NCBI RefSeq assembly: GCF_003576315.1
Contig: NZ_QWFZ01000017.1
Location: 186,001 to 250,000 of the forward strand
Origin: Henriciella mobilis
GTDB lineage: Bacteria > Pseudomonadota > Alphaproteobacteria > Caulobacterales > Hyphomonadaceae
DNA length: 64,000 nt
Direction: 5' to 3'
The notes under the pieces were generated by a model, which did no database searches, had not been told where the DNA came from, and saw only the letters and a program-made list of their open reading frames with translations. The position numbers were made by a program, and so were the translations under genes. Positions 59,843 to 63,246 of this stretch are shown piece by piece. Position 1 is the first letter of the stretch. Each line of letters starts with the position of its first letter.

Positions 59843-59864
59843 CGGGCGGCCCGAAAGCCGCCCG
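59843..59864. terminator. Bidirectional terminator between ABC genes and phoH
   Basis: CGGGCGGC (59843-59850) pairs with GCCGCCCG (59857-59864) around a 6-nt loop. On the minus strand it is followed by TTTTC, on the plus strand by CCTGTTT. It lies between two convergent genes, so it serves phoH best and the ABC operon less well. Confidence 0.75.
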
Positions 59865-59895: not shown

Positions 59896-60696
59896 CTAAA
59901 GAACGTCGAGCATTTCCGCGACGAGCGGGTGGCGGACTATGTCCTTGCCTTCGAGATAGATCACTTCGGCGTCGGAAAGGCCCTGGAGCTTTTCCGCCGC
60001 CTGGGCGAGGCCGGACAGGGACGGCAGCAGGTCCGACTGGGCCGGGTCGCCGGTAACGGCCATTGTGGAGTGCCAGCCAAGCCGGGTCAGCAGCATCTTC
60101 AGCTGTGTATAGGTGCAGTTCTGCGCCTCATCGATGACCACGAAGGCATTGTTGAGCGTCCGCCCGCGCATGAAGCCGATCGGCGCGATCTCGATCAGGC
60201 CCTCGGCCATCATGTGCTTGAGCTGCTGCGGCGAGAGCCGGTCTGCGAGCGCATCGTACAGGGGGCGAAGGTATGGCGCGAGCTTGTCTTCCATCGCGCC
60301 GGGCAGGAAGCCGATCTGCTCGCCGGCTTCAACGGCTGGCCGCGACAGGATGATCCGGGCGACCTTGCCCTTCTGGAGCGCCTCGACGGCCTTGCAGATG
60401 GCGAGATAGGTCTTGCCCGTACCCGCCGGCCCGAGGGCGCAGACCAGCGACTTGGTCTCGAGAGCCGTCATGAGGCGTGCCTGGTTCTCCGAGCGCGGCT
60501 TGATGTTCTTCTGGTAGCGCTGGTCGCGCGGCGTGTTCGGGTTCCTCACCTTCTCGGCATCGTCTGGATGCCACCCGCCCTGAATGGCGTACAGCCGTGC
60601 CTCGCTGCGCGATTTTCCTCCCATTTCCTCGAAGAAGCCCATCGCTTCCAGTTCGGCATTGGCTTTCTGACGCTTGGCAGAGGCTCTTTTACCCAT
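59896..60696 (-). CDS. PhoH-family ATPase
   Basis: 266-aa P-loop protein of the PhoH family. It has a basic N-terminus ([17 protein letters not shown]), the Walker [12 protein letters not shown] near residue 89, [35 protein letters not shown], the Walker [24 protein letters not shown] and the TGDPAQSDL motif. PhoH proteins are RNA-linked ATPases, often helicases. GGAG is 8 nt before the ATG. An intrinsic terminator lies just upstream in its leader, listed separately. Confidence 0.93.
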
Positions 60697-60719
60697 GTGA
60701 GGATCTCCTTTTTGGGTAC

Positions 60720-60867
60720 AAAAAAACCGCCGGGCGAAAGCGCGCGGCGGTGGCGGGAAAACGGGAAGAGGAGGCATCGGGCCCGCGGGACGGGCCGGGT
60801 GGTGTGTCTGGCAGAGACGGTCTGGGGACCATCGGCACTTGCCTCCCGAATCTCTCAACCATTAGAG
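60720..60867 (-). ncRNA. Structured leader or small RNA before phoH, ending in a terminator
   Basis: Minus-strand segment with several possible stems. One hairpin is at 60867-60852 (CTCT/AGAG). A long-range 8-bp pairing joins 60847-60840 (GGGAGGCA) and 60776-60769. Inside it are hairpins 60830-60819 (GGTC/GACC), 60818-60806 (GTCT/AGAC) and 60796-60780 (GGCCCG/CGGGCC). It closes with a 3' terminator at 60750-60727 (nine pairs, one mismatch, AAAG loop) followed by seven Us. The phoH ATG lies 24 nt beyond. It could be an attenuator leader or an independent small RNA; the 5' end is not known. Confidence 0.45.
60727..60750 (-). terminator. Intrinsic terminator in the phoH leader
   Basis: On the minus strand, CCGCCG...CGC pairs with GCG...CGGCGG (nine base pairs, one mismatch, loop of four) followed by seven U (60726-60720). 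It is 24 nt upstream of the phoH start codon in the same direction. Confidence 0.65.
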
Positions 60868-60877
60868 GTTACCAGTA

Positions 60878-60893
60878 TTAAGCGAGCCTTAAC
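60878..60893. promoter_or_regulatory. Perfect CtrA box TTAA-N7-TTAAC
   Basis: TTAA (60878-60881), 7 nt GCGAGCC, TTAAC (60889-60893). It lies 50 bp upstream of the gamma carbonic anhydrase start and 182 bp upstream of phoH in the opposite direction. The position fits a -35-region box for the carbonic anhydrase gene. A GAATC methylation site is at 60848-60852. Confidence 0.6.
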
Positions 60894-60942: not shown

Positions 60943-61470
60943 ATGGCACTTTTCGAGCTCGATGGCGTAAAACCGGTCACGCCCGAAAGCGGCAACTTCT
61001 GGGTGGCCGACAATGCGACCGTCCTCGGCCGGGTGATTCTCAAGGAAAATGCGAGCGTCTGGTTCAATTGCGTCCTGCGCGGGGACAATGACCCTATCGA
61101 GATTGGCGAGAATTCCAACATTCAGGACAGCTGCGTGCTGCACACCGACCACGGCGTCCCGCTGACGATCGGCAAGGATGTCACGGTCGGCCACATGGTC
61201 ATGCTGCATGGCTGCACGATCGCGGACGAAACGCTGATCGGGATCGGCTCGACCATCCTCAACGGGGCCAGGATTGGCCGCAACTGCATCATCGGGGCAC
61301 ATTCCCTGATCCCCGAAGGCAAGGAGATACCGGACAATTCCCTGGTCATGGGCGCGCCGGGCAAGGTCGTGAAGCAGCTGACGCCCGAACAGGTCGCGCT
61401 GATCAAGGCCTCTGCGCAGGGCTATGTCGCCAACTGGAAACGGTTCAAAGCGGGGCTGAAGCCGCTCTAG
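60943..61470 (+). CDS. Gamma-class carbonic anhydrase-like protein
   Basis: 175-aa left-handed beta-helix protein. The metal-ligand histidines are H67 (VLHTDHG), H84 (TVGHMVM) and H89 (LHGCTI). The rest follows the family closely ([52 protein letters not shown]). Such proteins (YrdA/CaiE/Cam-like) may hydrate CO2 or act as structural or acyl-transfer proteins. A strong CtrA box lies 50 bp upstream, suggesting cell-cycle control. Confidence 0.95.
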
Positions 61471-62226: not shown

Positions 62227-63183
62227 ATGCGCGTCTCAACTCGGAACATTCTTGCGGCTGCTGCAGGCCTGACAACGGTCATTGCGCTTGGAAGCGCTGC
62301 ATTCGCCGGTGGTGGAAGCGGCTGCAACACCTGTGCAGCGCCGCCGCCACCGCCGAGTTACACACCCCGGGACAACGCGCCATGCTGCACGGCGGGCCGC
62401 CAGCACGGTGTGCATGTGCCAGGCGTGAACATTGGCGGGCCGAATATCTCGATCACAGGGTCGAATGTGAATGTGGGTGGTGGACGCCTGCACATCTCCG
62501 GCGAGACCTATCTGAATGTTAATGCAGGCGCATCCGCCTCCAGCGAGGTCTATGCCTATGCTGGCGGCGGTGGTGGCTTCTCCGGGCCGGCGCCGGTTGC
62601 GACGTCCGCGATCGATGGGCTGAACGTCGTCGGTAGCGGCGAGACCTACACCGAAACCGTGACCGAGCAGGTGCCGACGCTTGAGGAATACTGCGTCGAC
62701 GAGATCAGCTATCGCGAAGTGCGCATGGCCGTTCAGGCGGTCTGCCTGGACGATACGGGCGCGCCCCATCCGGCTTCCCAGGTCGAATCCGGCCAGTCTG
62801 TACCCGGTGATTATCGCGGCGAGATCTATCGCTGCATGGCCGGCACGCGCATGCAGGTCACGCTTGGGTCTGTCGAGAATGGCGAGGCCAATTTCGACCA
62901 CGGACAGACCATGGCCTGCGCAAAAGGCGAGGCGCTTGTCCAGACGGCGGGCGGCGAACTGGCCTGCAAGCCGCAGATCCCGCAACGCAACTGTAATGAA
63001 CGATCGCTGCTGCGCCGCTATGGTCCCGGCATCAAGGTCGTGCAGACCCGCCGCGCCGAGAAACAGTGTGTTCCGCAGCAGCGCACCGTCATGAAGACGG
63101 TTTCACGCGAAGTTGAGCGGGTCCGCGAGTCGGCGCCCAAGCCGATGGTCTTCGACGGCGGCGTTGGCCAGGGCGTTTACTGA
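62227..63183 (+). CDS. Cysteine-rich secreted protein, hypothetical
   Basis: 318-aa exported protein with a signal peptide (MRVSTRNILAAAAGLTTVIALGSAAFAG). It then has a Cys/Pro segment (GCNTCAAPPPPP, CCTAGRQHG) and a glycine/asparagine-rich repetitive part (GVNIGGPNISITGSNVNVGGGRLHISGETYLNVNAGASA). The C-terminal part has further cysteines (EEYCVDE, QAVCLDD, YRCMAG, ACAKGE, ACKPQ, RNCNE). I do not know the family. It looks like a disulfide-rich surface protein. GGAG is 7 nt before the ATG, and a strong terminator follows. Confidence 0.8.
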   Translation: MRVSTRNILAAAAGLTTVIALGSAAFAGGGSGCNTCAAPPPPPSYTPRDNAPCCTAGRQHGVHVPGVNIGGPNISITGSNVNVGGGRLHISGETYLNVNAGASASSEVYAYAGGGGGFSGPAPVATSAIDGLNVVGSGETYTETVTEQVPTLEEYCVDEISYREVRMAVQAVCLDDTGAPHPASQVESGQSVPGDYRGEIYRCMAGTRMQVTLGSVENGEANFDHGQTMACAKGEALVQTAGGELACKPQIPQRNCNERSLLRRYGPGIKVVQTRRAEKQCVPQQRTVMKTVSREVERVRESAPKPMVFDGGVGQGVY

Positions 63184-63218: not shown

Positions 63219-63246
63219 GCCCCGCTTTCTAGCGGGGCTTTTTTTT
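63219..63246 (+). terminator. Intrinsic terminator after the Cys-rich gene
   Basis: GCCCCGCT (63219-63226) pairs perfectly with AGCGGGGC (63231-63238) over a TTCT loop and is followed by eight Ts. Confidence 0.9.

Follow-up and report, generated by a model that had tools for sequence, protein, structure and literature searches.

A Pro-Pro leader frame running through an intrinsic terminator suggests translation-coupled attenuation of phoH in Henriciella and its relatives

The phoH gene of the marine bacterium Henriciella mobilis is preceded by a leader that probably attenuates transcription by way of coupled translation, in the manner of pyrL (the pyrBI leader). This reading, which draws on sequence comparison, centers on an unannotated 47-codon frame on the minus strand of the window (the whole stretch of 64,000 nucleotides analyzed here). 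The frame carries a Pro-Pro motif, crosses both arms of an intrinsic terminator together with its T-run, and stops on the start of phoH. Its arrangement suggests that switching on phoH would require a ribosome that keeps pace with RNA polymerase. An earlier, sequence-only reading of this DNA had proposed an attenuator-type leader of phoH but missed the frame; the proposal is largely borne out, and the conserved element appears to be a leader peptide whose Pro-Pro frame continues through the terminator. Attenuators of this kind are already known. No paper on this leader, or on the combination of a conserved Pro-Pro, a terminator within the ORF and a stop overlapping the start placed before phoH, was found in the open-licence literature.

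The phoH leader in the window

phoH lies on the minus strand (Table 1); its divergent neighbor, which begins at 60943 on the plus strand, encodes a gamma-carbonic anhydrase. The genome has two PhoH paralogues, the second match being 51 percent identical (at G000:C23). Among the matches listed, the closest named relatives of phoH are those of Henriciella pelagia (96 percent identical) and H. aquimarina (95 percent).

A minus-strand hairpin, ACCGCCGCGCGCTTTCGCCCGGCGGT, with a predicted energy of -16.7 kcal/mol and a following T-run stands before phoH as the sequence-only reading had described it. The short spacing noted there also holds, at 23 nt rather than 24 nt to the ATG at 60696, and the terminator sits between the likely promoter and phoH. 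A role for the hairpin as the end of an upstream gene was rejected: the neighbor is divergent, and some 720 nt separate the hairpin from 61474, the end of the nearest minus-strand ORF that has a family match (PAS_5). The 158-nt segment from 60872 to 60715 has a folding energy of -59.2 kcal/mol, whereas its dinucleotide shuffles give -48.63 +/- 3.67 and 0 of 200 fold as well. A count of every hairpin of -11 kcal/mol or lower with a T-run across the window gives 8 on the plus and 5 on the minus strand, without excess over the 5-13 per strand seen in six shuffles; the phoH hairpin is set apart by its seven T, its site between the divergent gene and phoH, and its conservation. A simple terminator scan of the window left it off its list, probably because of mismatches in the stem.

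The ATG of the leader ORF, at 60832, follows a GGGAGG Shine-Dalgarno (SD) sequence by 9 nt, and its TAA (60691-60689) overlaps the phoH start within ATGGGTAA. An earlier in-frame ATG at 60862 was set aside as a start codon, as it falls in the -10 element.

Table 1. Features of the phoH leader region in the window
Feature	Position	Strand	Basis
phoH, 266 aa	59896..60696	-	PF02562, E 2.1e-80
Shine-Dalgarno AAGGAGA of phoH	60704..60710	-	sequence
Leader ORF, 47 codons + stop	60689..60832	-	codon-position tests, shuffle control
Shine-Dalgarno GGGAGG of leader ORF	60842..60847	-	5-base match to AGGAGG
Pro-Pro-Gly codons 11-13 (CCA CCC GGC)	60794..60802	-	sequence and codon comparison
Pyrimidine tract CCTCCTCTTCCCGTTTTCCCGCC just before terminator	60752..60774	-	composition
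Intrinsic terminator hairpin, inside leader ORF	60726..60751	-	folding, conservation and shuffle control
Seven-T run of terminator	60720..60726	-	sequence
Conserved GATTCG block	60847..60852	-	near predicted transcription start
Probable -10 element TCTAAT	60861..60866	-	sequence; seen in several relatives
TTAA-N7-TTAA, presumed CtrA-type box	60878..60892	-	sole perfect match in 64 kb, 0.01 expected

Conservation of the leader among relatives

The comparison set comprises 170 phoH upstream regions, made up of the window, 29 family loci, 60 more family genomes and 80 loci from named genomes (the best 80 of a longer list), of which 134 have distinct 120-nt upstream DNA. Their titles include Henriciella, Hyphomonas, Ponticaulis, Maricaulis, Oceanicaulis, Marinicauda, Caulobacter, Brevundimonas and others; a few named loci are titled outside the host's order, so not every one of the 134 can be assigned to that order with certainty. 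Three bins labelled Sulfopaludibacter, Acidobacteria and Hydrogenophilaceae (L082, L083, L122) carry phoH loci that resemble those of order members such as Hyphomonas and are probably mislabelled or mixed. Eight family genomes with phoH2 were left out (G054, G066, G075, G095, G096, G099, G101, G103), and a few family genomes are without it. Nine order-level places, four of which repeat named loci, also fall outside the 134 and carry TEPPG (4), PPTDPG (3), PPP (1) or DPGG (1).

A terminator, defined as a T-run joined to a hairpin whose energy is -13 kcal/mol or lower, is present in 127 of the 134 leaders, whereas five shuffled versions of the 150 nt preceding phoH give 3-9. The seven leaders without a clear terminator form one look-alike group (L101, L104, L115, L126, L130, L134, L137). 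The stems vary in sequence from genus to genus, which suggests that function, and not recent descent alone, keeps the terminator. In some Brevundimonas leaders (L118, L123, L124, L127, L132) the first hairpin is followed by another terminator-like one, or by an insert about as long, and the leader frame is open across this too.

The leader frame was scored by a Pro-Pro-X rule, with the codon pair 30-120 nt before the stem and the frame open through the T-run, and dinucleotide shuffles of the upstream 150 nt served as control. Such a frame runs through the terminator in 111 of 134 leaders against 29.5 (maximum 37) in shuffles, is joined by an SD and a start codon in 60 (1.8 in shuffles), by a stop on the phoH start, from -5 to +10, in 79 (8.4 in shuffles; 77 or 79 such stops, depending on the rule), and by all of these in 50 (0.7 in shuffles); since the leaders are related, the counts are not independent events and relatedness inflates them all. 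Some of the 111 frames differ from the frame of their relatives. The chance of a frame staying open is 0.19-0.71 per clade, open frames being easy in C-rich DNA. The frame extends further into phoH in 30 leaders and ends before it in 4. By the same rule it is absent from 23 of the 134, most Brevundimonas among them; DPGG replaces Pro-Pro in 10 of the 13 loci titled Brevundimonas. The SD-plus-start rule is failed by 74 of 134 leaders, and in the H. jannaschiana group a scan for starts finds one only at -196, without an SD, or none.

Codon-position bias also speaks for the leader frame. Across ten clades chosen by eye (83 of the 134 leaders), variability within the uORF is 0.184 at codon position 3 against 0.143 and 0.140 at the other two, an excess reached in 0 of 5000 within-codon permutations. 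Taken singly, position 3 is the most variable in 8 of 10 clades, the exceptions being Hyp4 and Caul. The bias is clearest from the start to the Pro-Pro (0.147 against 0.078 and 0.085). Of the columns that make up the Pro-Pro or DPGG codons, 4 of 44 at positions 1 and 2 are variable, compared with 14 of 22 at position 3 (Fisher p 7e-6); this table keeps Henriciella group B with an earlier, less conserved Pro-Pro. Pro-Pro-X thus appears to be conserved at the amino-acid level. The predicted leader peptides read MVVNRSPHISPPG in a Henriciella sp., MAVYVPIHPSPPE in a Hyphomonas group, MTSLRPSPPG in Maricaulis, MAYAPPQAG in Oceanicaulis, RSAFRR..STEPPG (gap shortened) in Caulobacter and VRSVRRMIPLEVDPSSDPGG in Brevundimonas; one locus titled Hyphomonas (L088) has MQLCYESPPD, with the frame open across the hairpin.

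A pyrimidine tract precedes the stem in most of the leaders. In the 127 with a terminator, the pyrimidine fraction is 0.756 in the 25 nt before the stem and 0.554 in the preceding 50 nt, with values of at least 0.7 in 93 and 1 of the 127, respectively. The 25-nt stretch is richer in U (0.31 against 0.15) and poorer in G (0.13 against 0.29), and its longest pyrimidine run averages 9.7, compared with 5.7 in mononucleotide shuffles.

About 335 of the 398 genomes of the host's order have a PhoH match with an E-value of 1e-80 or better (counted by eye), the mark of this paralogue. Several genera of one order-level family (f4; g13, g20, g34 and g38 are examples) have a weaker PhoH match only and seem to lack the paralogue. 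Of 46 PhoH2-type genes listed from outside the order, 40 were examined (L199-L238). A terminator lies within 130 nt upstream of 20 under a stricter rule, mostly with no clear leader frame, and before 24 under a lax one. A terminator before phoH2 therefore seems older than the order or more widespread. A Pro-Pro frame through the terminator occurs in 10 of these 40, about the shuffle rate, so the leader-peptide form appears to belong mainly to close relatives.

Alternative explanations for the terminator

The sequence-only reading had favored a riboswitch-like, multi-hairpin RNA. A structured leader of this sort, whether a riboswitch or a protein-binding RNA, would switch between terminator and antiterminator folds, and it now looks very improbable. 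The segment had been matched to no known RNA family, and Rfam concurs, with nothing at the gathering score in the window or in the loci of 14 relatives; a lax search of the leader gives five sub-threshold hits, and a tRNA and tmRNA search found none. Henriciella leaders do fold well, the 158-nt segment of the window as a whole and, with the terminator removed, one other leader (L058, z -3.21); the window without its terminator shows a weak excess (z -1.55, 15 of 200 shuffles as good). Of the eight leaders folded, L058 is the one in which the upstream part folds clearly better than shuffles, and multi-hairpin structure is not supported as a conserved principle. Hyphomonas group 2 gives -1.23, and the upstream part is ordinary (|z| < 0.6) in five, namely the single leaders from Henriciella group B, Hyphomonas group 1, Maricaulis, Oceanicaulis and Caulobacter (-0.58 to 0.07). 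The long-range pairing reported in the sequence-only reading joins the SD of the leader ORF (GGGAGGC, 60847-60841) and a downstream GCCTCC. In close Henriciella, this SD pairs with a CU-rich stretch, and 5 of 14 sequences share a swap of G-C for C-G in that pairing, which speaks for structure but may be one event; covariation within that group, a single genus, is slight, with any two-sided change in 5 of 26 predicted pairs. A conserved multi-hairpin RNA was rejected, with slight support confined to the close Henriciella group. When the terminator arms of 47 of the 127 terminator-bearing leaders were compared with the DNA upstream, no consistent antiterminator emerged. The z-scores are of both signs, with 6 of 94 arm tests at -2 or below; in one Hyphomonas group, the 3' arm of all four leaders tends towards upstream pairing (z -1.05 to -2.02). 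These signs favor an alternative fold and were judged too weak to name an antiterminator.

The same negative result weighs on classical amino-acid attenuation or initiation control, in which the position of the ribosome, or masking of the SD by the CU-rich tract, would pick the fold, as in trp-type leaders or the DUF1127 leader of Sinorhizobium meliloti. The pairing of SD and CU-rich tract in Henriciella agrees with such a scheme and may add initiation control in the close relatives there. A comparable pairing of the ribosome-binding site with C-rich codons is described for S. meliloti duf1127_1, a case that has no intrinsic terminator (PMC12218461). In trp, his and ilv attenuators the leader ORF ends before the terminator, which is not so in the phoH leader, and proline makes no obvious end-product signal for phoH. 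As the main principle, this variant seems quite unlikely.

A further rival holds that the terminator yields an independent small RNA of about 135 nt, whose CU-rich, anti-Shine-Dalgarno stretches act in trans, with phoH served by its own promoter or by leak-through. Predicted promoter elements directly upstream, the CU-rich stretches of the leader and the frequency of terminators before phoH outside the host's order without a leader frame (the 20 of 40 above) are all in line with it. It leaves unexplained the codon-position bias and the stop that overlaps phoH, and most of the folded leaders are no better than chance. A separate small RNA is unlikely to be the purpose of the leader and would be possible as a by-product of attenuation.

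Proposed mechanism of attenuation

What sequence comparison shows is a leader frame that carries Pro-Pro, crosses the terminator and stops on the phoH start, together with the pyrimidine tract; the transcription start, translation, masking, the direction of the response and its signal are inferred. RNA polymerase would start near 60854 and produce a leader of roughly 158 nt, on whose ORF a ribosome would load. Following close behind the polymerase, this ribosome would cover the nascent terminator, prevent the hairpin and allow read-through into phoH, where it would finish on the start and could re-initiate. A ribosome that lags, held at Pro-Pro or not loaded at all, would let the terminator fold and release an RNA of roughly 135 nt.

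Pro-Pro is expected to slow the ribosome. Its second codon lies 34-104 nt before the stem (median 71 in 107 leaders, a spacing bounded by the search range), so a held ribosome should leave the hairpin free and a stall should favor termination. The U-rich pyrimidine tract, in turn, would slow the polymerase when pyrimidine nucleotides are short and let the ribosome catch up, so that nutrient shortage would raise phoH. Put together, the leader might tentatively be regarded as a two-sided speed gauge, in which Pro-Pro paces the ribosome, the pyrimidine tract paces the polymerase and the laggard decides whether the terminator forms. The nucleotide signal is suggested by the composition of the tract and by indirect expression data.

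If the attenuator works in this way, several bacterial families would tie the gene of a putative RNA-acting ATPase to translation speed, through EF-P and charged tRNA-Pro, and the same leader would also be tied to pyrimidine or glutamine supply. Transcription-translation coupling would then be measurable in living alphaproteobacteria with one reporter.

Comparison with known leaders

In pyrL, a U-rich pausing tract precedes the hairpin, and polymerase pauses at such a tract when UTP is low. The phoH leader has the corresponding features, an ORF through the terminator and, by composition, a pyrimidine tract. As the downstream gene encodes PhoH (PF02562), it would work like pyrL and yet is no pyrBI leader; phoH is not a pyrimidine-synthesis gene, and its leader adds a conserved Pro-Pro and spans alphaproteobacterial families. 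Proline codons in mgtL and other leaders affect downstream transcription. mgtL acts through Rho, whereas the phoH leader has an intrinsic terminator within its ORF.

As with the phoH leader proposed here, coupled translation of the leader ORF in Escherichia coli prevents an intrinsic terminator from acting in the pyrBI leader (PMC5021804). The same source describes PPPPPP placed before the pyrL terminator in E. coli, where read-through depends on EF-P, as well as two natural Pro-Pro sites: rsxC, whose terminator follows PPE by 16 nt, has 1.8-fold less long transcript without EF-P, and narY, with its terminator 323 nt away, shows no EF-P effect in vivo (PMC5021804). The PPPPPP-pyrL reporter and rsxC share with phoH a Pro-Pro upstream of an intrinsic terminator. 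They differ in that the reporter is engineered and the rsxC signals lie inside an operon gene, whereas the phoH signals stand in a leader before the gene they would regulate. The phoH leader could thus be a dedicated, conserved version of what was built as a reporter and glimpsed in rsxC.

Among alphaproteobacteria, S. meliloti duf1127_1 likewise has a uORF that controls transcription of the next gene, but its termination is presumed to be by Rho and its uORF ends well before the gene (PMC12218461). Leader CDSs occur in the related genus Caulobacter at ilv and trpS of C. crescentus, one of them with attenuation; the ilv leader differs in that its Ile/Val codons sense tRNA charging (PMC4117421). 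That ribosome-profiling paper does not mention phoH or CCNA_03973 in its main text. It lists other CCNA_039xx numbers as small CDSs, including the leader CDS CCNA_03934 (PMC4117421), which makes CCNA_03973 probably the leader ORF described here, seen in translation.

CCNA_02727, a PhoH-family gene of C. crescentus, is the probable orthologue of phoH. Glutamine feeds pyrimidine synthesis, and the response of this gene to glutamine is therefore of interest for the nucleotide arm of the proposal. PMC10274813 depicts CCNA_02727 and the small gene CCNA_03973 as a single operon and reports that CCNA_02727 rises about 10-fold in ΔntrC and returns to normal with glutamine; carbon limitation and heavy-metal stress raise it as well, and it lies outside the Pho regulon. 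NtrC is bound at its promoter and repression is spoken of there, though the authors hold that the control is not simple direct repression (PMC10274813). Another study reports that a PhoH gene is down in copper stress (PMC8224329). The CCNA_02727 pattern fits the nucleotide arm, and the NtrC bound at the promoter leaves room for other readings. If the attenuator is real, it would explain this puzzling expression under glutamine and carbon shortage, outside the Pho regulon.

Promoter side and neighboring hairpins

TTAA-N7-TTAA, which we take to be a CtrA box, is found upstream of the leader in 16 of 133 leaders, against 0.15 in shuffles. Its one perfect match in the window falls in the gap between phoH and the gamma-carbonic anhydrase gene, which hints at cell-cycle control of the promoter. 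The GATTCG block is present in 112 of 133 leaders (shuffles: mean 10.6, maximum 18) and, outside the host's order, in 12 of 40. It contains GANTC, presumably a CcrM-type site, and its fixed T and final G exceed what GANTC requires.

Elsewhere in the window, a strong terminator (GCCCCGCTTTCTAGCGGGGC, with eight T) occupies 63219-63246 after the ORF at 62278-63183, for which a family search returned no match. Another strong hairpin, at 59843-59864 between phoH and a convergent ABC-transporter gene, has T-rich tails on both strands and looks like a two-way terminator.
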